From positions 1 to 64,000 of the forward strand of contig JAAEOA010000311.1 of assembly GCA_024223715.1 (NCBI GenBank): a stretch of 64,000 nt of DNA, in the 5' to 3' direction. A model generated the notes under the pieces. It was given only the letters and a program-made list of their open reading frames with translations, had not been told where the DNA came from and searched no databases. Of this stretch, positions 7,808 to 24,979 are shown piece after piece (the first letter of the stretch is position 1; each line of letters starts with the position of its first letter). The translations under genes and the position numbers were made by a program. Source of the stretch: a bacterium (lineage in GTDB: Bacteria > Krumholzibacteriota > Krumholzibacteriia > LZORAL124-64-63).

Positions 7808-10099
7808 ATGCTCGAATTCTGGAAAAAAATTAATCATCGGACCCGGTTTCAAGTGAGCTTGAGGGTCTTGCCTGTGGTGATGGCTTCGGTCCTCATTCTC
7901 GGGTTTTCCAGTTGGGTGCTATTTGAACACAAAACACTGACCACTGCTTCGAACCATCAACAACATGAACTGAAGCAACTGTCGGCTGGACTCCAGTTTC
8001 AGCTGACTCGCCTGGCAATGTCCGCAGAACTCAGAAAATCAGAAATAAGCCACAATCAAAAAAAACAACATGCCTCGAAGGAATCTTGTTATCGCGATAT
8101 GGGCGAAGGAATTATTGGTCTGGCGGAAGTTTCAGCCACGGCCCAGATCGGGTTGGGAGCAGAGGGCTCACCGAGTGTGGTGTTTTCTTCGAGAATGGAA
8201 AATGAGGCAAACTCTTTCCGGGTGAAAGAATGGATTCGTTCCCACGAGTTCCCCTGGGTTAACAAAGGCATTTCAAAACCTGCGGTTCTTAACTCAGATC
8301 CTTGGCACCAAATCATGATTTTTCCGGCAATTTCTCTGGAGGAAAAAACCGAACTAAGAGATTTTGGCCAGCAGAAGTCAGTTCGGGTTCATTTGCCTGT
8401 CCTGATTCAGCAAAAAACGAATCTTTCGGATAACCAACCCAACTCCAATGATACTTTCACTTTGTTGATGGTTGATTTGTCTTTGCTCGTGGCTGGTATG
8501 AATACACCGGAATGGATGTGCCTGGTTGCCGAAAACGGAACAATAATGCTCCAGCAGGGGGATGCAGAAAAAGATTTCTTCACCGGAAAATCAGGTAAGG
8601 AACTTCTGGCCATGAGAAATGAACTTCAAAACCGAACCTTTCAGCGAGGGTTGGTCGGGCGCTGGAAAGAGCCTTGGATGGTGGCCGCAGCCCAATCATC
8701 GGTACTTCCGCTGACACTGTTTTCCGCCCATCCAGCCAATGACCTCCGGGTTCTTATTTTACGATATTTAACTTTTGTAATAGGTGTAACGACCCTGGCT
8801 TTGTTTGGATCCATCTTTGGTATTATGCGGGTAATGAAACGAGTCACCCATCGTATGGACGAACTGGCCGACAGCATGTCAGCTTTGGCCAAAGGAGATT
8901 ATTCCCGCCGCTTACCCGAAGGCCAATGGGACGAAATAGGCCAATTGACAGGCTATTTTAATCTGATGGCTGTCAGCCTGGACGAAGCTCATCGTGAGGT
9001 TAAAGAAAAAACTGTCCACCTGAAGACGGCCCTGGAAAATATGCGCATGTTGGATCAGGCCAAAGATGATTTCCTCGTCCTCATTTCTCATGAAGTGCGG
9101 ACTCCTTTGACCGCCATCATGGGTGGTGTTGATTTCCTGAAAGCAACCATTAATAAGACCAGTGACGATGAGAAGGAAATACTCGATCGTCTTAGTGTGT
9201 CTGAAATTGTTTCCATTATTCACAACAGTGGCCAACGGCTTAACGGATTCATGAGCGATGCGATTCAAATGACTGCGATCCAATCGGCCGATCGCAAGTT
9301 GACTCTCAAGCCCAACCCGGTGGCTGATTTGGTGAAAATGGGCCTCAGCAGTATCAGAACGCTGGCCGATGAGCGAGGCATTACTGTGGAAAACAGGCTC
9401 GACGAACAGCTCTGGTCTGTGCTCGGCGATTCCGAATTGCTGAAAATGGCTTTCGCCAAAGTTTTGAAAAATGCCCTGGACCATAACCGCGATGGCGGCA
9501 GAATCCTGATTCAGGAAGCTTGGGATGTTCCCGGCCAGGGAAGTCCCGGAGAATTGTTGCAACCCGAGGTTGTGCGCCAGCTTTTCGATCAACCCACTTT
9601 CAGAAAATTTGAAGATGAAGAAATGCGATGGCGCCTCATTGAAGTGTTTAATACCGGTGAGCCCATTCCGGCCAGTAGACGTAAAGCCCTGTTTGGGAAA
9701 TTTGAACTTGTTGGCCCCATTCAAAACCACAACAAAGGCTCCGGTCTTAGTTTACCTATCGCACAGGGAGCGGTGCAATGCCACGGGGGTCGCATTCTTC
9801 TGCACAGCGACAACAAAGACGGCAATTCGTTCTATCTTTTATTGCCGACCCTTTTGGATGAGTCGGCGCTGAGTGAAGCTCTGGCAGAAAATTTACGGGA
9901 CGATGCCAACCAATGTATCAGCAGCACTTCCGGGAACAAAAAGGTCTGCAAGGTGGCTGACCTCGCTTCGCTCAAGGTTGAAGTCGATGACCCGGGCGCC
10001 ACTGTTGGCGGCAGCGGCCACCAATCCGGCAGCGGGATAAACCGCCCCGGCAGTTCCAATGACCAGGAAAAGGTCACAATCAGCCGCAGCAGAAAATGA
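7808..10099 (+). CDS. Membrane sensor histidine kinase (HAMP, HisKA, HATPase)
   Basis: This 763-residue two-component sensor has a transmembrane segment near residues 22-44, an extracytoplasmic sensor of about 270 residues with no family I recognise, and a second membrane segment near 313-337. These are followed by a HAMP domain (ALAKGDYSRRLP), an HisKA dimerisation helix with phospho-acceptor His428 (LISHEVRTPLTA) and a HATPase_c domain with N-box KVLKNALDHN and G2-box GSGLSLPIAQ. The G1 box is degenerate (FNTGEPIP instead of DTGxGI). No response regulator lies nearby, so it is an orphan kinase. The last 69 or so codons run antisense over the sirtuin gene and look like a low-complexity tail. 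The start ATG follows GGAAGG. Confidence 0.9.
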   Translation: MLEFWKKINHRTRFQVSLRVLPVVMASVLILGFSSWVLFEHKTLTTASNHQQHELKQLSAGLQFQLTRLAMSAELRKSEISHNQKKQHASKESCYRDMGEGIIGLAEVSATAQIGLGAEGSPSVVFSSRMENEANSFRVKEWIRSHEFPWVNKGISKPAVLNSDPWHQIMIFPAISLEEKTELRDFGQQKSVRVHLPVLIQQKTNLSDNQPNSNDTFTLLMVDLSLLVAGMNTPEWMCLVAENGTIMLQQGDAEKDFFTGKSGKELLAMRNELQNRTFQRGLVGRWKEPWMVAAAQSSVLPLTLFSAHPANDLRVLILRYLTFVIGVTTLALFGSIFGIMRVMKRVTHRMDELADSMSALAKGDYSRRLPEGQWDEIGQLTGYFNLMAVSLDEAHREVKEKTVHLKTALENMRMLDQAKDDFLVLISHEVRTPLTAIMGGVDFLKATINKTSDDEKEILDRLSVSEIVSIIHNSGQRLNGFMSDAIQMTAIQSADRKLTLKPNPVADLVKMGLSSIRTLADERGITVENRLDEQLWSVLGDSELLKMAFAKVLKNALDHNRDGGRILIQEAWDVPGQGSPGELLQPEVVRQLFDQPTFRKFEDEEMRWRLIEVFNTGEPIPASRRKALFGKFELVGPIQNHNKGSGLSLPIAQGAVQCHGGRILLHSDNKDGNSFYLLLPTLLDESALSEALAENLRDDANQCISSTSGNKKVCKVADLASLKVEVDDPGATVGGSGHQSGSGINRPGSSNDQEKVTISRSRK

Positions 10100-10624
10100 T
10101 GCTTCCATAATTTCAGGATCAATTCCTTCTCCAAACCAAACCACAGCCGGGCGTTCCAATCCGCCACATTTTTCGCAATGGGGCAGACCTTCCAGGGGTG
10201 TCTTTCTTTCGTAACGCTCATAATTGCAATCGAGGCAGCGCACCCGCCACAGGGACCCATGAAATTCATGAACAGTGGTATTACCAGCTTGCTGATGGTA
10301 GCCATCCACGTTTTGAGTCACGATGACCAAGTCCGATTTTTTCTCCAGATCGGCAAGGGCATAATGGGCCGCATTGGGTTCCGAATCGGCAATAAGTTGC
10401 CGCCGCCAGTCGTACCATTTCCAAATCAATTCTGTGTCAGCGTGAAAAGCCCGGGCTGTGGCCATTTCTTCAGGGCGATACTGGCTCCACAGGGCGTCTT
10501 CTCCACTTCGAAAAGTTGGAATACCACTGGCAGCCGAGATGCCGGCACCAGTCAAAACAGTTATTTTAGTTTCGGGTGTAATACCCTTGCGGTATTCTTC
10601 CAGGGTAGTGGGTTCAGCATTCAT
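9893..10624 (-). CDS. cobB: Sir2-family NAD-dependent protein deacylase
   Basis: This 243-residue sirtuin removes acyl groups from protein lysines using NAD+ in the cytosol. Visible motifs are GAGIS (26-30), FRS, TQNVDGYH (103-110), catalytic His122 in HEFHGSLW and a four-Cys zinc site (Cys130, 133, 150, 153). The pair Tyr71/Arg74 in WYDWRR corresponds to the Tyr-x-x-Arg signature of class III sirtuins such as CobB and SIRT5, which prefer succinyl-lysine and other acidic acyl groups, although deacetylation is also possible. AAGGAG precedes the ATG. The gene converges with the histidine kinase and overlaps it by 207 bp. It is divergent from a membrane peptidase gene. The gene symbol reflects family resemblance only. 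Confidence 0.92.
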   Translation of the reverse strand: MNAEPTTLEEYRKGITPETKITVLTGAGISAASGIPTFRSGEDALWSQYRPEEMATARAFHADTELIWKWYDWRRQLIADSEPNAAHYALADLEKKSDLVIVTQNVDGYHQQAGNTTVHEFHGSLWRVRCLDCNYERYERKTPLEGLPHCEKCGGLERPAVVWFGEGIDPEIMEASFSAAADCDLFLVIGTAGAVYPAAGLVAAAANSGARVIDFNLERSEVSHLADLFVPGSAADTLVGIVP

Positions 10625-10687
10625 GGTTGCTCCTTTTCGTCATTTCAGGATTTTCCCACTTTAACCGATTTTCGAGGATCAAAAAAG

Positions 10688-11596
10688 ATGAACATATTGG
10701 ATCGGGGTTTATTCTTGGCCACTGTAATACTGGTCATGATGCTAAGTTTTTTATTATACCTGCCTTCAGCTGCTCAATCGGCCATGCCGCCGGTTCATTT
10801 TAAATTTGAGAGTGATGCCGGTCTGGAAATGGCCCGCACCTGCGGCGAAATATGGAAATCCGAAGGCCCGACTCTGGTTTCAGATCTGGCCCCCTTTACG
10901 GCTTCTTTTGATACTGTAACCTGTTTTATTCTGGATACTGATTCTTTTACCAGGAATTTTTCAGGACGTCTTCCCGACTGGGGTGTCGGTGTTGCCATGC
11001 CTGGCGGCCGGCTTGTCGCCATCGACTATTCCCGTTTACCTGCCATTGGACGGGGCATAAAGGAAGTCTTTCTGCATGAAATGGTGCATGCCATTTTGTT
11101 TCAGGTTTCAGCAGATACCTGGTTGCCCACCTGGTTCCATGAAGGCTGCGCCATGAAGTTTTCCGGAGAATGGAAGTTTTCCGATACCGTATCTCTGGTT
11201 TTGGATGGAAAGGTTCCCAGCTTGGATCATCTTCAGGGCCGATTCCCTATTCCCGCTGGTCAGGCAGACCGGGCTTATCGAACCAGTTTGTTGGCAGTCA
11301 ATCGGCTGATCGATCAATATGGCTCGCACATCTTGGGGGAAATTCTTTCGGAAACGGCATCCTCAGAAACTTTCTCCCTGGCCTTTAAGAAGTCAACGGG
11401 CGTGGGAATGAGTGAATTTACCGATGATTTCGCATCGGCCATGAATTTGCGCCTGGGCTGGGCGGTGATTCTCACTCGCTGGCCTACTCTTTTTGTTTTG
11501 ATGTCGCTGATCTTTGCTACCGGGGCTGCGCGAAAAATGATCCAGACCCGGCGTCGTTTGGCAGAAATGGATGATGAGGAAGAAAGTATCGATTGA
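10688..11596 (+). CDS. Membrane-anchored MA-type metallopeptidase (HExxH)
   Basis: This 302-residue protein has an N-terminal hydrophobic signal or anchor (about residues 7-30) and a C-terminal membrane segment (about 262-285), followed by a charged cytosolic tail rich in Glu and Asp. Between them lies a gluzincin-like catalytic segment: His130-Glu131-x-x-His134 (FLHEMVHAILF) with the third ligand probably Glu152 in WFHEGCAMKF, as in the peptidase_MA-like family. The substrate is unknown. The catalytic part should face outside the cytoplasm if the first segment is a signal. The reading frame is open far upstream, antisense to the sirtuin gene, but this ATG, with GAGG nearby, is where the signal-like sequence begins. 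It is divergent from the sirtuin gene with a 63-bp gap. Confidence 0.78.
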   Translation: MNILDRGLFLATVILVMMLSFLLYLPSAAQSAMPPVHFKFESDAGLEMARTCGEIWKSEGPTLVSDLAPFTASFDTVTCFILDTDSFTRNFSGRLPDWGVGVAMPGGRLVAIDYSRLPAIGRGIKEVFLHEMVHAILFQVSADTWLPTWFHEGCAMKFSGEWKFSDTVSLVLDGKVPSLDHLQGRFPIPAGQADRAYRTSLLAVNRLIDQYGSHILGEILSETASSETFSLAFKKSTGVGMSEFTDDFASAMNLRLGWAVILTRWPTLFVLMSLIFATGAARKMIQTRRRLAEMDDEEESID

Positions 11597-11817
11597 TGCA
11601 ATCCGCACGATTTGTCCATGGATCTTCTTTTAACGGTAGCGTTTCCCATGGTTCCCCATAAATCCTTAAAAAATCTTCAATGACCCAGAAATTTCTCAAA
11701 ACTACCTCTAAAGGTCACCAATCGTTTTTTGGCACTGCCTATGCAACTGATGAATTGGGTGTCTAAATGCGGGACATTTAACAATTCGCAATACCAGGAC
11801 CTTTTGAGGGGATCATC

Positions 11818-12465
11818 GTGAAAACAATCAGCCAAATATTTTTTTTGAGCATCATTCTAATTTTGGGGATGGCTCCTGCAGCTTTGGCTGAAAATGTCGA
11901 TTACCATTTTCATTGGTCTCCGTGCCCGGTAATTGATGACAACGAAGGGGCCCTCTCGGTTGCAGTTTATTATGAAATTTGGGTCAAAAAAGGCAACCAG
12001 CCTGAAGAACGCGTAGCCACTCAAAGGTCAGACACTACTTATGTATTGTCTGCCGAACCTAGTGTTGTGCAGCGAATTAGGGTCAACGGTGTGGATGCGT
12101 CCGGTCGAAAATCTGAGGTTAGTGAGTGGTCAGAACCTATTTATTTTGAAGCGAGCCGTTCGTCGAGCTCCCCTCCGCCAGTTGCTGAAATGAAATCGAA
12201 CTACCCCAATCCGTTTAACCCTGAAACCCGAATTGTTTATGGTGTACCTTCTGATTTGCAGGCCGGCGACCCGGTTCGTCTGGACATTTACAATGTTGCC
12301 GGACTGCGGGTTCGCACTCTTGAAGTTGACCCCACTCCGGGTTGGCACGAAGCCACCTGGGATGGTAAAAACGATCGGGGTGAGACTCAAGCCACCGGTA
12401 TGTATGTCTCTCAGTTTACTGCAGGTTCTGTTTCCGCTACGCAAAAAATGCTGATGGTTAAGTAA
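11818..12465 (+). CDS. Exported protein with C-terminal NPFNP / FlgD-Ig-like domain
   Basis: This 215-residue secreted protein has a Sec signal peptide (residues 1-24, ending ALAEN). Residues 25-115 look like a fibronectin-III-like beta fold (YYEIWVKKG, IRVNGVDASGRKSE). Residues 130-215 form the FlgD-Ig-like C-terminal module with YPNPFNPETRIVYG, VRLDIYNVAGLRVRTLE and GMYVSQFTAG. This module is widespread in secreted proteins of FCB-group bacteria, where it resembles a sorting or attachment domain; no type IX secretion gene is visible here. The start is GTG with GAGGGG upstream. The gene is monocistronic and followed by a very strong hairpin. Confidence 0.85.
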   Translation: MKTISQIFFLSIILILGMAPAALAENVDYHFHWSPCPVIDDNEGALSVAVYYEIWVKKGNQPEERVATQRSDTTYVLSAEPSVVQRIRVNGVDASGRKSEVSEWSEPIYFEASRSSSSPPPVAEMKSNYPNPFNPETRIVYGVPSDLQAGDPVRLDIYNVAGLRVRTLEVDPTPGWHEATWDGKNDRGETQATGMYVSQFTAGSVSATQKMLMVK

Positions 12466-12490
12466 GGCGTTTGTTGCAATTTTAAATAAT

Positions 12491-12564
12491 GTTGCCCCCG
12501 CAACTATTTTTCCCGCCCGAATGCCCAAGGAGGGACGGAAAAATAGTTGCGGGGGCAACTTTTT
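12491..12564 (+). terminator. Very long perfect hairpin with T-run
   Basis: Two 23-base arms (12491-12513 and 12537-12559) are perfectly complementary around a 23-base loop and are followed by TTTTT. It begins 25 bases after the NPFNP-protein stop. It is unusually long and GC-rich at the base (GTTGCCCCCGCAAC), so it may also be a dispersed palindromic element. Confidence 0.75.
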
Positions 12565-12671
12565 GTGAACACCCTATATACACAACTGCATTGCTGCTCT
12601 CCAGCACATAACAAATCCGAAAATTCCACTACCAGCGGCCAATTTCTTTCCTATCGCCCCCTTTTGAGTTA

Positions 12672-12693
12672 TTATTGCGACTCTTATTGCGAC
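12672..12693. repeat. Two 10-bp direct repeats upstream of greA
   Basis: TTATTGCGAC occurs twice with a 12-bp period, about one helical turn, 31 bases before the greA start codon. It could be a regulator site or chance; I see no matching known operator. Confidence 0.35.
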
Positions 12694-12723
12694 AAAAGAT
12701 CCAAATTTTTGTAGAGGAAAAAA

Positions 12724-15269: not shown

Positions 15270-15956
15270 ATGCGGAACGCGCGTCCAGCTGGGTTCTCAC
15301 TGTTCGAAATTCTTATTGCCGTGGCAATTGTGGCTATTCTGGCAGTAGCAGTGGGTATTCCTGTGGCCAAAAACCTGAATCAGGGAAAAGTGGCCCGGGC
15401 TCAGAGCGATGCCAAAGTTATTGGCAATGCCATCCTTGATTTTTATAAAGATGTGGGCCAATGGCCTGCCCAAACGGACCTGGACAGCAACCCGGAAGCC
15501 TTTCGTCTGGTGGGGAATTATGAACTGGGCAGCGGCAACGAGGGAATTTCCCGGGGAACAGACTTAGCCACGGGTTCCAATACCTGGGCAAGCTATGGCA
15601 CACCAACCACACTGACTGAACAATTGATTCGAAACCAATCGGGTAATATCCACCCACTATATAATCTCAGTGACAAACCTCATGTAAGTCCCGGTTGGAA
15701 CGGTCCGTACATAGACCAGATTCCTCTCGATCCTTGGGGCCGCCCATATGTGGTCAATATTGGCTACGCCCTTCCTGCGGTGTCCGGGACCATAACCCAG
15801 GAAAATGAATACCATAATGTGATGGTTCTTTCAGCCGGCAAAGATGGGGTTTTCAATACAACTTTCGACGCCCGGGTTTATAACGAAAAAGCTGATGGTG
15901 ACGATGTGGGTTTTGTCATTCTGGGTGCTCGTAAATTCAAACGGAACCAGGACTAG
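15270..15956 (+). CDS. Type II secretion pseudopilin (GspG-like)
   Basis: This 228-residue prepilin-like protein has the leader MRNARPAG, then FSLFEILIAVAIVAILAVAV, the class III N-methylation motif with Glu+5 and a hydrophobic helix; cleavage is expected after Gly8. The globular part has the GspG-type signature, with a long helix (SDAKVIGNAILDFYKDVGQWP) and a DPWGRPYVVNIGY strand followed by SAGKDGVFNT, like the calcium-binding loop of major pseudopilins. It would polymerise in the inner-membrane-anchored pseudopilus. The start ATG has GAAGGG eight bases upstream. It is first in the secretion operon and is followed by gspE after 26 bp. Confidence 0.88.
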   Translation: MRNARPAGFSLFEILIAVAIVAILAVAVGIPVAKNLNQGKVARAQSDAKVIGNAILDFYKDVGQWPAQTDLDSNPEAFRLVGNYELGSGNEGISRGTDLATGSNTWASYGTPTTLTEQLIRNQSGNIHPLYNLSDKPHVSPGWNGPYIDQIPLDPWGRPYVVNIGYALPAVSGTITQENEYHNVMVLSAGKDGVFNTTFDARVYNEKADGDDVGFVILGARKFKRNQD

Positions 15957-15982: not shown

Positions 15983-17659
15983 ATGGGTCATATTAAAACA
16001 AAACGACTGGGCGAAATTCTGGTGGACGCGGGAATAATTACCCCGGAAAAACTGGATTTGGCTCTACGTGAACAAAGCCAAACCAAAGAAAAACTGGGTA
16101 CCATTTTTCAGCGTTTGGGTATTTGTTCCGAAAAGGATATTTCCAAGGTACTGGCTGGTCAGGCTGGTGTCGATTCCATTGACCTGAATGTCACGGAAGT
16201 GGACACTGCACAGCTGGAAATCATTGAACGGGAATATGCTGAAAAATTTTCAGTTATTCCCATTAATCGAAAAGGCAGCACTCTGCGGGTGGCTATGGCC
16301 AACCCCTTGGATCTGCAAATTATTGACGAACTGGGCTCCAAATCCGGCAAGTACATTGAAGTTGTTCACGCCCCTGAAAGTGAAGTCCAGGATGCCATTG
16401 TTCGCTATTACGGTTCGAAAGCCGGTGCGTCCAATGATGTCAACGATCTGATTTCCAAAAGCCAGAAAGCTTTGGCCAGTGGTGTGAAACTGGGACAGGG
16501 CGACTCGCCGTTCATTCGCCTGGTAGATCAAATTATTGGCCAGGGTATTGAAGAAGGCGCCACGGATATTCACATCGAACCGGAAGAAAAGGTTTTGCGT
16601 TGCCGGTACCGTGTGGATGGCCGCCTGATTCAGGGGCCGATTCTGCCGGTTGAGCTTCTGGGTATTGTCATCACCCGAATAAAAATCATGTCGGAAATGA
16701 ATATTTCCGAAAGCCGAATTCCCCAGGATGGTCGCATTTTATTCGATACTGGAAAGCGCAAAATTGATTTGCGTGTTTCTTCTTTCCCCACGGTCAATGG
16801 CGAAGGAATTGTCGCCCGTATTCTGGACAAGGAAGCCCTAATTGTAGGCCTGGAAAAACTGGGTATGGAAAAGGATATGCAGACCATATTCCGCAAGGAT
16901 ATTGTCAAGCCCAACGGAATTATTCTGGTGACTGGACCCACTGGTTCCGGTAAGACCACGACACTGTATTCGGCCCTTACCTACCTGAACAAACCTGATA
17001 CCAAAATTATTACTCTGGAAGATCCAGTGGAATATGAATTGCCGGTTATTAATCAGGCTCAAATCAACACCGCCAAGGGGTTCACTTTTGCCAAAGGCCT
17101 GCGGGCCATTTTGCGGCAGGATCCGGACATTCTGCTCGTCGGTGAAATTCGCGATGTAGAAACGGCCCAAATGGCTATTCGAGCAGCTCTTACCGGTCAC
17201 TTGGTATTCAGTACACTGCACACCAACAGTGCCGCCGGTGCCATTCCCCGACTTCTGGACATGGGTGTGGAGCCTTTCCTGCTTTCAGCCACTCTGGTTT
17301 CCATTATTGCTCAGCGTTTGGTACGCCAGATCTGCCAGCAGTGTGGTGAACCCACCGAATTAAACGCTGAAGATATGGAAACCATGAATCTGACAGCTGA
17401 AGATGTAGCCGGAGGAACCCTGCTTGAAGGCAAAGGTTGTGATCTTTGCAGAAACAGCGGGTATCGTGGCCGCCTGGCTGTTTTTGAGTATCTGCATGTG
17501 GACAAACCCATTCGCAAACTCATTGCTGAAGGTAAAAATGCTTCTGAAATTGAAGAGTCGGCACGCGCCACCGGACAAGCGGCTTTGCGTGACGATGCAA
17601 TACACAAGATGATGAATGGAAAAACCACCCTGAGTGAAGTCATGAGGGTGGTCTCATGA
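15983..17659 (+). CDS. gspE: Type II secretion / type IV pilus assembly ATPase
   Basis: This 558-residue hexameric cytosolic ATPase powers pseudopilus assembly. An N-terminal MshEN/T2SSE_N domain (GEILVDAGIITPEKLDLAL, residues about 10-150) is followed by the core. The core has Walker A GPTGSGKTTT near residue 318, an Asp box (ITLEDPVEYE), Walker B ILLVGEIRD and the His box FSTLHTN. A four-Cys zinc module follows (ICQQC near 450, CDLC near 487). All catalytic parts are intact and the length is normal. The stop codon overlaps the start of gspF as ATGA, implying translational coupling. It could serve a pilus rather than secretion; the absence of a PilT-like retraction ATPase nearby slightly favours secretion. 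Confidence 0.95.
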   Translation: MGHIKTKRLGEILVDAGIITPEKLDLALREQSQTKEKLGTIFQRLGICSEKDISKVLAGQAGVDSIDLNVTEVDTAQLEIIEREYAEKFSVIPINRKGSTLRVAMANPLDLQIIDELGSKSGKYIEVVHAPESEVQDAIVRYYGSKAGASNDVNDLISKSQKALASGVKLGQGDSPFIRLVDQIIGQGIEEGATDIHIEPEEKVLRCRYRVDGRLIQGPILPVELLGIVITRIKIMSEMNISESRIPQDGRILFDTGKRKIDLRVSSFPTVNGEGIVARILDKEALIVGLEKLGMEKDMQTIFRKDIVKPNGIILVTGPTGSGKTTTLYSALTYLNKPDTKIITLEDPVEYELPVINQAQINTAKGFTFAKGLRAILRQDPDILLVGEIRDVETAQMAIRAALTGHLVFSTLHTNSAAGAIPRLLDMGVEPFLLSATLVSIIAQRLVRQICQQCGEPTELNAEDMETMNLTAEDVAGGTLLEGKGCDLCRNSGYRGRLAVFEYLHVDKPIRKLIAEGKNASEIEESARATGQAALRDDAIHKMMNGKTTLSEVMRVVS

Positions 17660-18858
17660 GAGAGTACCGTTACAGCGCTCTTTCCAGCAACGGACAAACG
17701 GTGTCGGGTATTCGCCAAGCCGAAAACACGGATTCGCTGACTCTTGAGTTGCAGGAAATCGGCCTCATTCTCCTGAAGGCCAAACCGACTTTAGGCAGCT
17801 TTGGCAATTTGTTCTCTTCCAGTGGGCGAGCAGGCAAAAAAGAACTACGGGACTTTACCCAGCACATGTCCACTTGCCTTTCAGCAGGAATCACAGCGGT
17901 TTCCGCCCTGGCCGATTTTCAGGAAATGAGTGACGGGGCCTTTGGTGAAGTCGTCGCTGATATTCGTGGTGATGTAAGCAGTGGAACTGCTCTGGATGAA
18001 GCCTTCGCCAGGCATCCTCAAATTTTTCCCACAGTTTACCTGGCCATGCTTTCCGCTGGTCAGAACTCAGGTAATCTGGATGAAATATTTGAAGAACTGG
18101 TAGCGTACCTGGAATGGAACGACAACCTGAAAAGTCAGACCACTCAGGCCCTTATTTATCCGTCCATGCTCTTGGTGGGTATAATTGGGTTAATTCTTTT
18201 GATGATGCTTTTTGTGATCCCCCGATTTGAATCCATTTTTGAAGATGTGGGTTTCGAATTGCCTACCCTCACGGTCAAAATGATGGCTATGGGAAATTTC
18301 ATGGGCACCTGGTGGTGGCTGATTTTTGCATCTATCGCCGCGCTGACCGTGGCCATGAAAATGTATTTCCGCACCGACCAGGGCGCATACAACCGAGACC
18401 GCGTTCTGTTGAAAATTCCAGTCCTTGGCGGTTTCATTCAAAAGATTGCTCTTTCACGGTTCTCAAAATCCTTTGCTCTGATTTTTGCTTCAGGCTTGGA
18501 TTTATTGCGCCTGCTGGATCTTATGGAAGGTGTGGTTGGCAACAAAGTAATGGGAAGGCAAATAGCCTCCATTCGCCAGCGGGTGGCAACGGGCGAATCG
18601 CTCTCCGAGAGTTTTGCCGGGGCTGATGCTTTTCCCACACTCATCCAGCGCCTGGTGGCAGTTGGAGAAAAAACCGGTTCCCTGGACAACTCCCTCATGC
18701 GAGCCAGTCTGTATCTTGATAAAGAAATACCTCGGGATTTAAAAAAAGCCTTTTCCATTTTTGAAGGGGTCATCATTGCTGTCATGGGCGCGGTGGTTTG
18801 CGTGGCGGCGATGTCCCTGTTAATGCCCATCATGCAAATGGGAGGGAACCTGCATTGA
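17656..18858 (+). CDS. gspF: Type II secretion / pilus inner-membrane platform protein
   Basis: This 400-residue polytopic membrane protein has two repeats of the T2SSF four-helix domain. The first is around residues 60-185 (LRDFTQHMSTCLSAGI and GNLDEIFEELVAYLE) and the second around 265-385 (ALSRFSKSFALIFASGLDLL and GEKTGSLDNSLMRASLYLD). Membrane helices lie near 170-195, 215-235 and 370-395. It anchors the ATPase and pseudopilus base. The N-terminal YRYSALSSNGQTVSG is the usual PilC/GspF start. The start overlaps the gspE stop (ATGA), and its own stop overlaps the TTG start of the next pseudopilin. Confidence 0.94.
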   Translation: MREYRYSALSSNGQTVSGIRQAENTDSLTLELQEIGLILLKAKPTLGSFGNLFSSSGRAGKKELRDFTQHMSTCLSAGITAVSALADFQEMSDGAFGEVVADIRGDVSSGTALDEAFARHPQIFPTVYLAMLSAGQNSGNLDEIFEELVAYLEWNDNLKSQTTQALIYPSMLLVGIIGLILLMMLFVIPRFESIFEDVGFELPTLTVKMMAMGNFMGTWWWLIFASIAALTVAMKMYFRTDQGAYNRDRVLLKIPVLGGFIQKIALSRFSKSFALIFASGLDLLRLLDLMEGVVGNKVMGRQIASIRQRVATGESLSESFAGADAFPTLIQRLVAVGEKTGSLDNSLMRASLYLDKEIPRDLKKAFSIFEGVIIAVMGAVVCVAAMSLLMPIMQMGGNLH

Positions 18859-19895
18859 GTTGTTCAAACAAAAACCGTCAAGGCTTCACGCTCATTGAAA
18901 TCATTATTGCAGTGGCTATTGTGGCGGTCCTTGCCGGTGCTGTGACGCCTCTGGTGTATAAGCAGATGATTTCTGCGCGAGAAGAGGCCACTGAAAAAGA
19001 GTTGGGTCACTTGAATGATTCTCTGGTGGAATTCTATGAAGATTGCGGACGTTTCCCCACCGAGTCCGAAGGGCTGGCCGCTTTGGTTGCCGATCCCGGA
19101 GTTACCGGTTGGCAGGGACCATATTTGGGAACCGACCGTTCCGACCCGGTTCAGGAAGTCAGTACCGATTCTTTTCAGGAGACCTACGTTTACGATCTGC
19201 AGCCAAGTACTAATCCCTCAGGGGCCGCCGATTTATTGCTGGCCAGTGTGGGGGCTGACCGTCAGATGACTTTTGGCGGGTTGAACCAGACCTGGAACTT
19301 GTCAGGCGATGGTGATGACCTTCTGGCCCTCGTTTCGGTCGGACCCATCAACCGCGACAAAATGATCGATTGCCAGAATGAATTGCAAAAAATAGGGGAG
19401 GCTGCCAGCCGGTATTTTGAAGACCATGCCAGCTTTCCAGGCAACTCCGGAGCTCTGGTAAATGATTATCTGGACCCGGGAATTTCCGGGGGAAACTTCA
19501 TCGATCCCTGGAACATGCCTTATGTGTTGGCCGAAACCGGAGGCAGCGGATCGCCGGTGGTCTTCCTGACCCGAAGCTTTGGCCCAAATCGCAGTAACGA
19601 CGACGGTGGAAGTGATGATTTGACTCTGAATATCAGCAGTGTTCCGCCCGGGCGAAAATCGACTCAGTGGAAGTTGGGAGTTGCCCAAACGGTCCTGAAC
19701 AATAATGGCTCACTGGCTCTGACAGGTGTCTGGGCAACGGACCGCACGGCCCTGGGTCTGGATGGAACTTTTGATGTGGATGGCTGGGGTCAGGACCTGG
19801 CCATAAATGTATCTTCCCGAACGATTTTTTCCGTGGGACCAGATGGCAACGCCGTCTTGGTTACCGATAATTTACCCGCGGGAGTGGGGCCTTAG
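18855..19895 (+). CDS. Pseudopilin with apparently repeated GspG-like globular domains
   Basis: This 346-residue prepilin has the leader SCSNKNRQG, then FTLIEIIIAVAIVAVLAGAV with Glu+5. A first GspG-like region follows (ELGHLNDSLVEFYEDCGRFP, GWQGPYLG). It is about twice the usual GspG length. After residue 175 a second helix-plus-strand unit appears (LQKIGEAASRYFEDHASFPG, FIDPWNMPYVLAETG, FGPNRSNDDGGSDDL), then a third shorter one (DVDGWGQDLAINVSSR, FSVGPDGNAV). The start is TTG: it overlaps the gspF TGA as TTGA and has GGAGGG eight bases upstream. It may be a tip or minor pseudopilin, or an alternative major subunit. Confidence 0.85.
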   Translation: MSCSNKNRQGFTLIEIIIAVAIVAVLAGAVTPLVYKQMISAREEATEKELGHLNDSLVEFYEDCGRFPTESEGLAALVADPGVTGWQGPYLGTDRSDPVQEVSTDSFQETYVYDLQPSTNPSGAADLLLASVGADRQMTFGGLNQTWNLSGDGDDLLALVSVGPINRDKMIDCQNELQKIGEAASRYFEDHASFPGNSGALVNDYLDPGISGGNFIDPWNMPYVLAETGGSGSPVVFLTRSFGPNRSNDDGGSDDLTLNISSVPPGRKSTQWKLGVAQTVLNNNGSLALTGVWATDRTALGLDGTFDVDGWGQDLAINVSSRTIFSVGPDGNAVLVTDNLPAGVGP

Positions 19896-19907: not shown

Positions 19908-21437
19908 TTGAGTAAGAAAAAAGGCTACAGCATTAGGTACAGCGGTGATGGTTTCTGTGCCATGACGGTTTCGCGCCAGGAAAAATATCGATGGAGAATT
20001 GAGCAACTGGAGCAAAACAAAGCTGAAGAAGGGCCTTCGGCCAGTCTTGCAAAAATCCTGGACAAAAACAGCGATTCTTTGACGATGGTTGTGGATGGCT
20101 CTGAGGTCACCACATCGTTGGTCACTTTGCCTAAGCTGAAGAAGAAACAAATGGGACTTGCTGCGGTCGGCTGGGTGGCCAGGACAGAGGCCACACCTGC
20201 CGATCAGTGGGCTGTGAACTGGAGTGAGAGACCTCGGCTTGAGGGTGCACCCGGCAATGAGCAATCAGATGTTTTTCTGCTATATGCGCAACGAAGTTTT
20301 GTTGAACAGCAACAAGCTTTGCCCTTGAAGTGGGGCGTTTCTCCCAATCGTATGGTTCCCGATTTTCTGGCCTTGGAAAACATGTTTCGCCGCTACGGTC
20401 CCGGTCATGATGAACTGGAAGCCTGGAATGTTGTGTTTGTTGATGGGAATAATCACTTCCTCTGTATCAGCACTCCTTCAGGCTTAATAATGACCCGCCC
20501 ACTGCCCGAAGATTTATCTAACGGAGCCGATGGAGATGAGTATCTCGCCCGGTTGGCTACGGAAGTGGATCGTTCCATTTTCTTTGCCCGTCAAACGGAA
20601 TATAACCCCAATATTCAGCGTATTGTTGTTTGTGGTGATTCGGTGCTGGCCCAGGGGTTGGTTGAACGCTTGAAAGATGAAACTTCGGTTCCGGCCGAAT
20701 TCTGGGATGTCTCTTCCCTGTTTGATTTTGAAGGTGGCAACCTGAACTCCAGTTTGTTTTTGCCGGCCATGGCTGCAGTTATGGCGACCAAACCCAGCAA
20801 AAGCAATCTGTTACCAAAAAAATCCAAGTCACTATTTAATCCAGTTGTCCGGCGCCGTTTGCTGGTGGCCTCTTCCACTGCCGCGGCGGTAGTGGTTCCC
20901 ATTCTTGCGGTGGGTGGATTTCTTACTTCCAGCATTCAAGACCAATATCTTGAAAAAGCTCACCGTCATCTTGATGAAGCTCAAATCCTGGCCGATGAAG
21001 CAACTCAGATTTATGTGGCCCAAAAAGTATTGCAGGCCAAGGAAGAGCACATTCGTACAGCAAAAGAAAATGAGAGGGATTTTGCAGGAGTCCTGTTGCA
21101 CCTGGCCTCCCTTACTCCAGGTGAAATTATCTTCAAGGATCTGCGCCTTAAAGAAAACTCCTCCGGGGAATTGGTTCTCCAGTTGATTGGAGTAAGTAAC
21201 TCCCAACAGAACCAGATGGCTCAGCAGGCGTTTGTCGATTTTCAAAAAGCTTTAGATGACAGCGAAATTTTGAAAGCTACCGGAGAGCCACGCAAGCTGG
21301 TCATTGCTGCTGAAACAGACGAAGGCAAGGATATTAAAAAAGTGGAATTCAGCATGGAATACCGGGTCGATACCCAATCCGCTGGTCATTCCAAAACTCA
21401 AGAGGTTGCCGTGGTGGCAGCCCGCACCGAAGGATAA
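19908..21437 (+). CDS. PilM-PilN-like (GspL-like) assembly platform protein
   Basis: This 509-residue protein has one membrane helix near residues 305-330 (RRRLLVASSTAAAVVVPILAV). The N-terminal cytosolic part resembles the actin-like PilM/GspL fold (YSIRYSGDGF, then VVDGSEVTTSLVTLP, and IQRIVVCGDSVLAQGLVERL). After the helix come a coiled coil and a PilN-like periplasmic domain (LLHLASLTPGEIIFKDLRLKE). One polypeptide therefore covers what PilM and PilN do in type IV pili, as GspL does in type II systems. The start is TTG with AAGGAG upstream. It lies 12 bp after the pseudopilin and 3 bp before the PilO/GspM-like gene. Sequence similarity is weak, so the call depends partly on position and topology. 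Confidence 0.72.
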   Translation: MSKKKGYSIRYSGDGFCAMTVSRQEKYRWRIEQLEQNKAEEGPSASLAKILDKNSDSLTMVVDGSEVTTSLVTLPKLKKKQMGLAAVGWVARTEATPADQWAVNWSERPRLEGAPGNEQSDVFLLYAQRSFVEQQQALPLKWGVSPNRMVPDFLALENMFRRYGPGHDELEAWNVVFVDGNNHFLCISTPSGLIMTRPLPEDLSNGADGDEYLARLATEVDRSIFFARQTEYNPNIQRIVVCGDSVLAQGLVERLKDETSVPAEFWDVSSLFDFEGGNLNSSLFLPAMAAVMATKPSKSNLLPKKSKSLFNPVVRRRLLVASSTAAAVVVPILAVGGFLTSSIQDQYLEKAHRHLDEAQILADEATQIYVAQKVLQAKEEHIRTAKENERDFAGVLLHLASLTPGEIIFKDLRLKENSSGELVLQLIGVSNSQQNQMAQQAFVDFQKALDDSEILKATGEPRKLVIAAETDEGKDIKKVEFSMEYRVDTQSAGHSKTQEVAVVAARTEG

Positions 21438-21440
21438 CTC

Positions 21441-22124
21441 ATGGCTGGAAATGCCAGAATTAAACACTGGTTGGCTCAATCAAAAATTCGTTGGGCAGCT
21501 GTCACGATCATCTGGGTGGTCCTCCTGGTAACGGTTGCCATTCCATCCTGGCAGGGTGTTCAGAAACGCCATGCAGAGATCAACGTTTTGGAAGAGCGTC
21601 TTGCTAACATGGATGACTGGACAGTAGCCGGAATGTGGCTGGCCCCGTCCGTGCAGGAGCGCACACTGCCAGTGAATTCCCAATTCAGCGTCCTGTTTCC
21701 TGACCGCCGGAACCGTGAAGAATTATTCTTGTCGCTGGCACGCATTGCTGACCAAAGCGGTGTGACTGATTTTGGCCTGAGTGAAGCCAACGAATTCTCC
21801 ATGGGCGGAAACGATGTCTGGAGTGATGGAGCCGGCATGGGAACCGGATCACCTACTGATAATATGGGTGACCCTCCACCCCCAACCGACGGTGCCATGG
21901 GTGATAATGCGATGGGACCGTCTATTGCCATTCCTGAAGTGGAATTATCGACTTACCGGGTTAACGCCCGTTTTAATGCAGATTACAAGCGAATCGCCCA
22001 GTTTATGGGCGGTCTCAAAAAAATTGAAAGAACCCTGAAAGTGCACAGCCTGACGGTGCGGCCTGAAAAGGATGGCATCGGGGTGGATTTGGAGCTGGAC
22101 GTTTATGTCAGCAAAGCAAGCTAA
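21441..22124 (+). CDS. GspM/PilO-like assembly platform protein
   Basis: This 227-residue bitopic protein has a short cytosolic N-terminus, one membrane helix (residues about 18-37, WAAVTIIWVVLLVTVAIP), a periplasmic coiled coil and a ferredoxin-like domain. The segment NREELFLSLARIADQSGV and the C-terminal YKRIAQFMGGLKKIERTLKVHSL resemble PilO. Between them is a Gly/Met/Pro-rich insert of about 40 residues (118-157) not typical of the family, probably a flexible loop. It would pair with the PilN-like part of the preceding protein. Its 3' end overlaps the following gene by 20 bp. Confidence 0.7.
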   Translation: MAGNARIKHWLAQSKIRWAAVTIIWVVLLVTVAIPSWQGVQKRHAEINVLEERLANMDDWTVAGMWLAPSVQERTLPVNSQFSVLFPDRRNREELFLSLARIADQSGVTDFGLSEANEFSMGGNDVWSDGAGMGTGSPTDNMGDPPPPTDGAMGDNAMGPSIAIPEVELSTYRVNARFNADYKRIAQFMGGLKKIERTLKVHSLTVRPEKDGIGVDLELDVYVSKAS

Positions 22125-22707
22125 CAAAAAAATCCCAATCATTCTTTCGGTAGTGGCTGTGATGCTGGTCTTCGTGGTTTATCTGAACCTGCAGACTTTT
22201 GGGGTCATTGGGGATAACAAAACATCACGAGGTTACAGGGTTCAGGCTCATCCGCCGGTACCATCAGACCTGGGGCAGTTCGCCAGCCATGAGGCTCAGC
22301 CTGAAGTTGCCTGGTCAATGACAGGGGCTTCTGCTGAATTGTTGATCAGGGATCCGTTTTTCCCACAACAATCGCAGCCCGAGCCTGTGGTCATGGCAAC
22401 GCAAAAAAAGCCAACCAGGAAAGCAGTGCCCAGGAAGAGAACCAAGTCACTTCAATGTTCGGCCATCATGCTCGGGGGCAAGTCGCCCATGGCAATTATT
22501 GATGGGGAAGGCCGACACATCGGTGACCGCATCAGAGGTATGGTTCTAACAAAAATTGATGCCGACGGTCTAACTTTCAGACGGAGCAATGGCACCGCAA
22601 AATATTTACCCATCGGGGTTCAGGAAGACGATGAAAATTCCTACCGGGTTGTGACTCGGACAAGAAATAATAATGACCAGGGAAGAACATCCCTACAGGG
22701 ACAATAA
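22105..22707 (+). CDS. GspC/PilP-like inner-membrane linker protein
   Basis: This 200-residue protein has a membrane helix at about residues 10-29 (IPIILSVVAVMLVFVVYLNL), a Pro/Gln/Lys-rich periplasmic linker and a C-terminal beta domain (CSAIMLGGKSPMAIIDGEGRHIGDRI). That domain matches the homology-region pattern of GspC and the PilP fold, which contact the secretin. The start ATG lies inside the end of the preceding gene and has GGAGCTGG upstream; a longer frame exists but would put charged out-of-family residues before the helix. It is followed by the secretin after 30 bp. The assignment relies on fold pattern and operon position. Confidence 0.68.
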   Translation: MSAKQANKKIPIILSVVAVMLVFVVYLNLQTFGVIGDNKTSRGYRVQAHPPVPSDLGQFASHEAQPEVAWSMTGASAELLIRDPFFPQQSQPEPVVMATQKKPTRKAVPRKRTKSLQCSAIMLGGKSPMAIIDGEGRHIGDRIRGMVLTKIDADGLTFRRSNGTAKYLPIGVQEDDENSYRVVTRTRNNNDQGRTSLQGQ

Positions 22708-22737: not shown

Positions 22738-24225
22738 ATGACAAGGATCAAAACATTAATGCTAGGGGCGATAATCCTAATCGCTCTGACAATGTTTGCC
22801 GGCCCGGTTCTCTCGTCCGAAGACTGGACTGAAGGTCGACCCCCGGTAACCATCGTGACCAACGGCTGGGTGGGCGTGCGCGATATTCTTCGGAATGTGG
22901 CCGAAAATGCGGGTCTGGGCCTGCAAATGGCCCCAGATGTAACAGGGAAGGTCAACGTGCATCTGCAGGATGTTTCGGTGGACCGAGCCTTGGATGCCTT
23001 GTTGGTTCCTGCTGAATTGGGCTACGAAGTGGTCGATAATGTCCTGGTTGTTTATAAGCAGGGCATGGTGACCCGGTGGATTACTTTTGACTATCCGGTA
23101 ACCAATCGCGTGGGTCGCGGGGAATTGGAAATTTCCGCCAGTAGAAGTGGTGGTGGTGGTGGTGGAGGCGGAGAAGAAGGCAGCAACAAAAGTCACGTTA
23201 CCAGCACTTCAGTCATGAGTATCTGGCCTGAAATCATGGACGCTTTAAAAGTTGTGGTTTTTGACAATCAGGAAAATGTTCAGGGCTCTTCAGGCGGGGA
23301 TGAAAAACTATCGGTTAGTGTTTCGGATCCGCAAGGTCGGGTTCTGGTGGTGCATCCCATGGCCAGCATGGTCATGATTACAGCTGAATGGAATCGGGTA
23401 AACCGGGCGGAGAAAATGCTGGCTCGCCTGGAAGAGTCGCTTCAACGGCAGGTGGCCATTGAGGTGCGAATAATGGAAGTCTATCTGGACGATGAAACCC
23501 AAACAGGAATCAATTGGAGTATTCTGAATTTGAATTCAGACATTGCTTCGGTTGGGTTGCAAACTTTGGATGCGACCAGTCATATTTCGGACAGCTTTTT
23601 CCAATTCACCATGGATTCCAGTCATCTGGCCGGAGTTATGGAGGCCATTAGTTCCAGTGGTGATATTAACAATGTCAGTACGCCAAAAATTACCACCTTG
23701 AACAACCAAAAGGCCGTAGTGCGTATTGTCACCGAAGAAGTATTTTATGAGTCTCAGGTGGAACCGGCAATAATAACCAATGGAGTTGCCAGTGAACCGG
23801 TCATCAATTATACGGCACGCAGTTACCCGGTGGGAGTGGTTCTGGATGTGACTCCTCAAGTAGGGCAGGACCGGGTCATTACTTTGAATGTCCATCCAAC
23901 AATTAGCGATATTGTGGGTATTGCGGAGAGCCCAAATCTGGATACGGCTCCGGTGCTCTCCATTCGTGAGCTCGATACCGTTGGCAAGGTCAAAGCCGGT
24001 GATACCCTGGTGATTGCCGGACTAATGAGTGAGCGGGTTAATACGCGGCGAACGGGTATTCCCATTTTGAAAGATTTGCCGTTGCTGGGATATATCTTTG
24101 GCAAGACGTCTCATAAAAAAACTAATATTGAATTGGTCATGCTGTTGACGCCGGTGATCATGGATGGCGATGCTCTTGACAAACTGGCCAAGGCGGAGCG
24201 GGAGCGAATCGAAGGTCAGATGTAA
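22738..24225 (+). CDS. gspD: Secretin (GspD/PilQ family outer-membrane channel)
   Basis: This 495-residue protein has a Sec signal peptide (residues 1-26). A short N-terminal secretin domain follows (VGVRDILRNVAENAGLGLQMAPDVTGKVNVHLQDVSVDRALDALL in the genome, residues about 42-88), then one N1-type ring domain (VLVVHPMASMVMITAEWN). The secretin core contains VAIEVRIMEVYLDDETQTGINWS, the VSTPKITTLNNQKA gate region and the C-terminal VKAGDTLVIAGLMSE, with IPILKDLPLLGYIFG. It is short compared with GspD, having fewer N-domains. A poly-Gly run (about residues 137-144) is encoded by repeated GGT. It is last in the operon and followed by a terminator. Confidence 0.94.
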   Translation: MTRIKTLMLGAIILIALTMFAGPVLSSEDWTEGRPPVTIVTNGWVGVRDILRNVAENAGLGLQMAPDVTGKVNVHLQDVSVDRALDALLVPAELGYEVVDNVLVVYKQGMVTRWITFDYPVTNRVGRGELEISASRSGGGGGGGGEEGSNKSHVTSTSVMSIWPEIMDALKVVVFDNQENVQGSSGGDEKLSVSVSDPQGRVLVVHPMASMVMITAEWNRVNRAEKMLARLEESLQRQVAIEVRIMEVYLDDETQTGINWSILNLNSDIASVGLQTLDATSHISDSFFQFTMDSSHLAGVMEAISSSGDINNVSTPKITTLNNQKAVVRIVTEEVFYESQVEPAIITNGVASEPVINYTARSYPVGVVLDVTPQVGQDRVITLNVHPTISDIVGIAESPNLDTAPVLSIRELDTVGKVKAGDTLVIAGLMSERVNTRRTGIPILKDLPLLGYIFGKTSHKKTNIELVMLLTPVIMDGDALDKLAKAERERIEGQM

Positions 24226-24310: not shown

Positions 24311-24979
24311 TCAGTTGACGATTGTGATCAAAGATCCAACATCATCACCCTGAATGTCTTCAGATGTAGCATCGGCGTAACCGGTTTCCCATGTGCCGTT
24401 GGGTCCGGCACTCAGTACAAAAACCTTGTGGCGAACGGTTCCAGCATAACGTCCGGGAAAATACCGGGCATTGACGATGTATGCATTTCCCCAGGGATCA
24501 GTCAGGTCGTAAGAATCGATGTATGGCCCTTTCCAGGAATTGGGACCCGAAGTGGGCCAATCCTGGTTGTTCTCGTTGGCTCCGTCACCATCGGCTGAAG
24601 AGTCATTATCTGGATTGTTGTAATACAAATAGTCACCCAGATTTTTGGATATACCATAAGTACCCCAGTTGGTGGCACCTGAAGCGGCACCGGATCCAGC
24701 TCCCGTAGCCAAGGTGGAACTGCTGACCACACGGTCAAGGGCGGCTCCAGATGGGCCGTCAGCATTGGTGATGGGCCATTTGCCGACATCTTTAAAATAA
24801 CTCAAAATAGCGGTGGCAATAACTTCGGTTTCATTTTGAGCTTTACCAACTTTTGCATCTGCAAGATGCCGGAAAACCATGGGACTCATGGCCGCGGCAA
24901 AAATAGCTACAATAGCAACGGCAATAACAATTTCAATGAGGGTAAATCCTCGACGGTCCATTTTCCTAGTGTTGATCAT
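24311..24979 (-). CDS. Type II secretion pseudopilin (GspG-like), stand-alone
   Basis: This 222-residue prepilin has the leader MINTRKMDRRG, then FTLIEIVIAVAIVAIFAAAM with Glu+5. The globular part contains TEVIATAILSYFKDVGKWP, a Gly/Ala/Ser-rich stretch, then GPYIDSYDLTDPWGNAYIVNAR and SAGPNGTWETG. These are the same elements as in the first operon pseudopilin, so the two are probably paralogues. It is transcribed toward the secretion operon from its own promoter. GAAAGGA precedes the ATG. It may be the abundant pseudopilus subunit, made at a different level from the machinery. Confidence 0.88.
   Translation of the reverse strand: MINTRKMDRRGFTLIEIVIAVAIVAIFAAAMSPMVFRHLADAKVGKAQNETEVIATAILSYFKDVGKWPITNADGPSGAALDRVVSSSTLATGAGSGAASGATNWGTYGISKNLGDYLYYNNPDNDSSADGDGANENNQDWPTSGPNSWKGPYIDSYDLTDPWGNAYIVNARYFPGRYAGTVRHKVFVLSAGPNGTWETGYADATSEDIQGDDVGSLITIVN

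Follow-up and report, generated by a model that had tools for sequence, protein, structure and literature searches.

Results

A Pseudopilin with Three Serial GspG-Like Units

The pseudopilin described here consists of one pilin helix followed by three serial GspG-like units in a single chain. A pseudopilin of a secretion fibre normally has one head per subunit. The protein is probably a multi-unit minor pseudopilin that sits at the filament tip or initiates the filament, in a minimal T2SS/MSHA-like machine of the type IV filament class in Krumholzibacteriota. All positions in Table 1 refer to the stretch of 64,000 nucleotides that was analysed, hereafter the window.

The start of the gene overlaps the stop of the GspF gene, and a Shine-Dalgarno-like GGGAGGG is found ahead of it at 18840. 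Sites obtained in a promoter and terminator scan were no commoner than in shuffles. Behind the leader, MSCSNKNRQG, comes FTLIEIIIAVAIVAVLAG. The prepilin motif reads ...RQG/FTLIE, with Phe as the first mature residue (codon at 18885), and the mature protein comprises 336 of the 346 prepilin residues. The motif was recognized both by N_methyl of Pfam (E 2.7e-9, 36.6 bits against a cut-off of 21.2) and by TIGR02532 of NCBIfam (30.7 bits, cut-off 16.3).

Profiles of the three units, U1, U2, and U3, were cut from an alignment of 28 homologs, 23 with and five without Glu5, and compared by hhalign. U1 and U2 matched with a probability of 98.2, E 5.5e-14, and a score of 78.8, while the highest score in 100 column shuffles was 27.4. 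For U2 and U3 the probability was 87.5, with E 3.6e-6 and a score of 35.0 (maximum 25.6 in 100 column shuffles). The direct comparison of U1 with U3 was not significant (probability 8.2, score 20.8 against a maximum of 21.0 in 100 column shuffles), and the kinship of U3 therefore rests on its matches to U2 and to G1. G1 and G2, the two single-domain pseudopilins of the window, had profiles that matched all three units above the shuffles. The profile of G1 and its relatives scored 68.2, 55.3, and 40.6 against U1, U2, and U3, respectively (40 shuffles of each reached at most 16.3, 16.7, and 22.6), and the G2 profile scored 39.0, 32.3, and 33.0 (maxima 18.1, 19.7, and 21.2). U1 and U2 have in common a helix ending in FP, a strand starting with D-x-F/W, and an S-x-G-x-D/N ... 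D-D loop; in U3 the helix lacks FP, the strand begins with D-G-W-G, and the loop reads S-x-G-P-D ... D-N. An Asp-rich loop is thereby kept towards the end of all three units, and it may correspond to the calcium site of GspG. Searched as a single sequence, the protein exceeded the T2SSG cut-off of Pfam in U1 alone (precursor residues 35-138, E 3.7e-16, 59.6 bits against 21), U2 stayed under it with 14.1-15.3 bits, and the U3 piece had no Pfam match.

The whole protein was modelled by AlphaFold2 on 15 sequences, with pLDDT 80.8 and pTM 0.58, the latter making the geometry between the domains unsure. In the model, helices at mature residues 3-54, 157-181, and 253-273 are each followed by strands, giving three helix-plus-sheet units. 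A Foldseek search with the whole model returned nothing at E 0.001 or better, the best match being EpsG at 0.010, and for this reason we relied on VIA-align. Residues 26-149 aligned with crystal structures of GspG, best with the EpsG entry 3fu1 (Z 11.3, rmsd 2.1, 23% identity across 100 aligned residues), followed by four more at Z 10.5-11.2. Residues 154-252 aligned with the type IV pilins 4noa (Z 7.2, rmsd 2.9, 79 aligned), 6t8s (7.2), 6xxd (6.8), and PilJ 4ixj (6.6), values which lie under 8 and can reflect a common arrangement according to the warning of the program. The matches to U2 in rows 7-10 were all type IV pilins, in agreement with the sequence profile; non-pilin matches all had Z of 5.1 or less, and the pilins 7t31 and 2hi2 were also near 5. 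U3 modelled alone reached pLDDT 82.1, and among 16 chains compared with it only two gave Z of at least 2, both of them pilins, PilA1 (4.3) and PilE (4.0). As modelled, U3 is a reduced unit with a helix, short helices, and one hairpin.

The original prediction was that serial GspG-like units, two or three in number, follow one pilin helix, and both the profiles and the model bear out three. The boundaries it proposed, precursor residues 50-165, 175-265, and 300-335, fit these units, except that each unit starts earlier with a helix of its own. A single globular domain with no internal repeat is contradicted by the profiles and by the predicted structure. A single large pilin head whose loop region is enlarged, with motifs that resemble each other by chance, could account for the non-significant U1-U3 comparison and for the sub-threshold scores of U2 and U3 as single sequences. 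We regard it as highly improbable, as U1-U2, U2-U3, and each unit against G1 beat every shuffle, the modelled units are separate, and natural two-unit versions without U3 exist.

Table 1. Positions and supporting evidence of the three-unit pseudopilin, its parts, and the neighbouring genes.
Feature	Position	Strand	Evidence or remark
G1, single-domain GspG-like pseudopilin	15270..15956	+	T2SSG 1.8e-9; synteny
GspE/PilB-type assembly ATPase	15983..17659	+	T2SSE 1.3e-130, MshEN 4.3e-18
GspF/PilC platform protein	17656..18858	+	T2SSF 2e-48; TIGR02120 330.8 bits against cut-off 424
Three-unit pseudopilin gene	18855..19895	+	TTG start, 346-aa precursor
Prepilin leader	18855..18884	+	10 aa, last residue Gly; N_methyl and IV_pilin_GFxxxE matches
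N-terminal pilin helix, mature 3-54	18885..19046	+	Glu5 present; model and alignment
Unit 1 (U1), mature 28-157, GspG-like head	18966..19355	+	T2SSG 3.7e-16; Z 11.3 to 3fu1
Unit 2 (U2), mature 156-257, helix 157-181 and sheet	19350..19655	+	hhalign to U1 E 5.5e-14; Z 7.2 to 4noa, 6t8s
Unit 3 (U3), mature 256-336, reduced, helix 253-273 and hairpin	19650..19892	+	hhalign to U2 E 3.6e-6; G1 score 40.6; pLDDT 82.1; Z 4.3 to 6t8s
GspL/PilM-like protein	19908..21437	+	TIGR01709 1.9e-4 (under cut-off); PilM_2 0.0018; co-occurrence
GspM/PilO-like protein	21441..22124	+	weak: NF040576 0.0063, PilO 0.047
PilP/GspC/GspB-like protein, weak assignment	22072..22707	+	Y4YQ_C 0.0034, T2SSB 0.16
Secretin, best family match MshL	22738..24225	+	Secretin 2.9e-36; TIGR02519 189.2 bits against cut-off 250.2
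G2, convergent single-domain GspG-like pseudopilin	24311..24979	-	T2SSG 1.4e-7; G1-G2 hhalign E 1.4e-33

The Surrounding Operon

The genes from G1 to the secretin are tightly packed on the forward strand, with short gaps or overlaps. The three-unit gene is placed directly after the GspF gene and before the GspL/PilM-like gene; in the classical T2SS gene order, gspG-K lie between gspF and gspL. The assembly ATPase, platform protein, and secretin all exceeded the Pfam cut-offs of T2SSE, T2SSF, and Secretin, and the NCBIfam equivalog cut-offs for GspE, GspF, and GspD were not reached by the operon proteins. Matches to GspL, GspM, and GspC were weak and all sub-threshold in both Pfam and NCBIfam. 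No gspH, I, J, or K was found among the open reading frames of the operon, nor was a retraction ATPase found there; distant gspH-K genes could be missed, since the metagenome-assembled genome (MAG) is 90% complete and in 439 contigs. In the same genome there were 11 prepilin matches, nine of them over the cut-off, of which three belong to the window locus, one to a paralog, and five to type IV pilus clusters containing PilB/PilT or PilV- and PilY1-like genes. A second ATPase pair of PilB/PilT type is encoded in a type IV pilus cluster apart from the operon.

At 11818-12465 the window encodes a short secreted-looking protein with a C-terminal FlgD_ig domain (8.6e-7), and several relatives have a similar gene upstream of their operon. 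It is a possible candidate for the cargo.

Conservation of the Multi-Unit Pseudopilin

With the protein as query at 1e-5, matches were obtained in 62 of 146 genomes. Homologs from different genera and families keep the three-unit length with identities of 39-75%, and outside the class the matches listed cover U1 alone, as expected of ordinary pilins. A multi-unit gene was present in 26 of the 80 genomes of the class (profile A1 at 1e-20), and the search of the phylum comprised the same 80. All named loci are from Krumholzibacteriota, plus one MAG labelled Gemmatimonadales.

Neighbourhoods were examined by tblastn of the window proteins at 18 loci, 17 of them distinct (L150 is L062). Twelve of the 17 had the order E-F-multi-unit-L-M-P-D, and every one of these 12 complete loci also had a single-domain partner, G1, G2, or both. 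Among the remaining five, L055 and L061 are cut off by the contig end, L054 is masked from some point on, the locus in L066 has diverged, and L040 has two three-unit genes away from any operon. An apparent loss of the secretin end and G2 in L054 was discounted, since that stretch is masked. With the GspL-like protein of the window as query, which very distant L genes could escape, 24 of the 78 genomes searched in the class gave a match, and all 24 had the multi-unit gene. In the two multi-unit genomes without a GspL match, G019 and G035, the multi-unit gene is close to a contig end.

The number of units varies. Two-unit proteins were found in L030, L031 (two, side by side), and L041, and in L113 the second unit is degenerate and matches poorly. 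L066 encodes two neighbouring pseudopilins of two units each, with Gln5 in the first and Glu5 in the other, separate from the paralog pair. Side-by-side copies of the multi-unit gene occur in L029 and L065. In genome G044, whose operon copy is the one in L113, two adjacent three-unit genes are located away from any secretion operon (L040, 6019-8184). In L064, amplification of G2 has left four copies in tandem on the reverse strand (9884-12706), and the three-unit gene of that genome has a frameshift in unit 3. Low-complexity tails of about 38-71 residues follow unit 3 in several proteins, rich in Gly and Asn in L010, L013, L016, and L018 and acidic, rich in Asp, in L036. Frames of 760-785 aa in L013, L018, L020, and L024, suggesting a fusion of GspF with the pseudopilin, were rejected as they look like a shifted reading of gspF in GC-rich DNA.

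Some of these observations would suit a body subunit, many copies of which polymerise with units 2 and 3 pointing radially to form a thick or knobbed pseudopilus. Glu5 is present in 27 of 32 multi-unit proteins, two copies stand side by side in L029 and L065, and the Gly/Asn-rich tails are suited to surface exposure. We consider such a role rather unlikely. The single-domain pseudopilin accompanying all 12 complete loci, in four copies in L064, is what is expected of the major subunit, and bulky extra heads along the fibre would need either to get through the secretin or to fill it. Of the two roles first proposed for the protein, to thicken or to cap the pseudopilus, capping agrees better with this constant partner, with the operon lacking gspH-K, and with the Glu5-less paralog described below, while nothing directly supports thickening.

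A search with units 2-3 spanned 387 genomes, and nine of its loci with odd lengths were examined. Outside the phylum, at least two two-unit GspG pseudopilins were recognized among these by reading and by Pfam T2SSG, L180 (238 aa) and L181, with one T2SSG stretch in the former and two in the latter. The serial heads in L066, L180, and L181 are possibly of separate origin. A prepilin motif was seen by reading in L184, L186, and L187, and none was seen in L182, L183, L185, and L188. L182, L183, and L185 combine a C-terminal GspG-like head (T2SSG 21.3 bits in L182 by Pfam, by reading only in the other two) with one membrane helix and a long cytoplasmic-looking N-terminal part, which we take to be DUF4388-like. 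In L188 a GspG-like domain (T2SSG 27.9 bits, over the cut-off) is inside a larger protein, presumably alpha-2-macroglobulin-like.

A Paralog Lacking Glu5

The genome of the window encodes a second three-unit protein (L048/L002; L048 1405-2577, G000:C425), which is 44% identical to the first over residues 5-346 and adjoins unrelated genes. It has Ser at position 5 and a C-terminal CBM5/12 domain (6.1e-10). Its relatives L027, L037, L038, and L039 have Gly or Thr at this position and an extra beta-rich-looking domain, and L037 also has CBM5/12. This chitin-type module, seen in L048 and L037, is unusual for a pseudopilin. Beta-rich-looking C-terminal domains were noted in L027, L037, L038, L039, and L041; archaeal flagellin PF01917 was matched on two of the extra domains with E 0.07 and 0.19, far under the cut-off. 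When the 32 multi-unit proteins were labelled by hand, an extra C-terminal domain was present in five of five Glu5-less and one of 27 Glu5 proteins (Fisher 3e-5), a p-value that is not independent evidence, since the five form one clade (support 100/99) and represent one event. Such a paralog was found in five of the 26 multi-unit genomes.

The CBM5/12 modules of L048 and L037, together with MshL as the best family match of the secretin, would also fit a surface pilus for display or adhesion, without secretion, in which units 2 and 3 (in the paralogs the CBM5/12 or beta domain) bind chitin, for example. Modular pilins with lectin modules are moreover widespread (PMC8179133). We hold this to be quite unlikely for the window protein, which has no known binding module, while its operon has no retraction ATPase and the PilB/PilT-type pair is in the separate type IV pilus cluster. 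Display would fit a position at the tip as well, and in that form it differs from the tip and initiation role favoured here in function alone.

Discussion

The position of the three-unit protein in the filament, its order relative to the paralog, and the function of units 2 and 3 are what we infer beyond the profiles, the model, and the gene neighbourhoods. A tip or initiation role is suggested by the single-domain partner, by the gene slot, by the operon without gspH-K, and by the Glu5-less sister. After cleavage between Gly10 and Phe11, the helix would enter the inner membrane as in any pilin. The three-unit subunit would then start the filament, or take the place next below a cap without Glu5, for which the paralog with CBM5/12 is an example, while single-domain G1 and G2 would polymerise beneath it as the body of the fibre. 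Units 2 and 3 would extend ahead of the tip, either towards the secretin or through it, and one chain could do the job of the GspH-I-J-K heads in priming, pushing or binding cargo, and opening the secretin. Several observations speak against this reading. The protein keeps Glu5 and could therefore be inserted along the fibre; the Glu5-less paralog was found in no more than five of the 26 genomes; three units are not strictly needed, as seen from the two-unit forms and L113; and the matches to the modelled U3 are weak (Z 4.3 and 4.0).

The likeness to GspG/PulG/EpsG (T2SSG, PF08334) comprises the prepilin helix, Glu5, and U1. The window protein differs from them by two more GspG-like units in the same chain, it scores 71.4 bits against the cut-off of 88.85 bits of the GspG equivalog TIGR01710, and the probable major subunits at its locus are encoded by separate single-domain genes. 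PilJ of Clostridioides difficile has a dual-pilin fold, the second head of which extends from the pilus (PMC9556784), and thus resembles the window protein in carrying a second pilin-fold head behind the first in one chain. The window protein, however, has three units, is GspG-derived by sequence, and belongs to a diderm operon with a secretin. The head duplications of the two may be independent; PilJ was missing from the phmmer list at E 1, and such absence counts as weak evidence.

With TcpB and CofB the window protein has in common that a single large multi-domain subunit with Glu5 is found beside a major subunit (at the window locus, a probable one), in an operon without a retraction ATPase. 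TcpB is the one large minor pilin of its system and starts both assembly and retraction without a retraction ATPase (PMC5207764), and it presents cargo at the pilus tip (PMC9565799). CofB adds beta-repeat and beta-sandwich domains to one pilin module (PMC8179133), whereas the window protein adds pilin folds. Taken together, the subunit would in our favoured interpretation probably work like TcpB/CofB and be built like PilJ.

GspK (XcpX), one of the GspH-I-J-K subunits, is similar in its slot between F and L and in being a large subunit. XcpU-V-W-X (GspH-I-J-K) form the tip of the T2SS (PMC6211770), and filaments start from a tip complex of minor pilins with a cap subunit lacking Glu5 (PMC10191384). 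GspK is large and lacks Glu5, as does the C425 paralog, but the window protein keeps it, and GspK owes its bulk to an alpha domain placed within the sheet (PMC5207764), whereas the window protein is modelled with two serial C-terminal helix-plus-sheet units.

Modular pilins such as Streptococcus sanguinis PilB/PilC also have an extra module behind the pilin module. The survey of such proteins took as extra domains those that are not particular to the biology of type IV pili (PMC8179133), and serial pilin-fold units therefore lie outside it. The CBM5/12 paralogs L048 and L037 belong to modular pilins in this sense and the window protein does not, no such domain being found in it with Pfam and NCBIfam. 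Minor pilins with several domains and chains with two pilin heads have precedents, so that having more than one domain is no novelty in itself. No report on serial GspG units or on this operon was found in a literature search by title and start of abstract, a scope that mostly leaves out subscription papers. We find it quite possible, though short of probable, that Krumholzibacteriota have an undescribed filament machine in which fused serial heads replace the GspH-I-J-K tip and a Glu5-less, carbohydrate-binding sister is the outermost cap.

Annotation by Pfam alone hides the serial heads, because units 2 and 3 stay under the cut-off. As a module, the GspG head can be repeated and moved: pseudopilins carry it in series, and in L182, L183, L185, and L188 it is joined to non-pilins. 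If the serial heads of L066, L180, and L181 are indeed of separate origin, pseudopilins would be able to change their number of heads in evolution. The way in which the tip of a pseudopilus begins assembly and makes contact with cargo is a hard question, partly since four separate subunits need to be rebuilt together. A machine that apparently unites several heads in a single polypeptide could be studied directly by expressing that one protein. The three-head design is conserved across a group of uncultured bacteria within the Krumholzibacteriota, which probably use three heads in a row to start or to cap the fibre.
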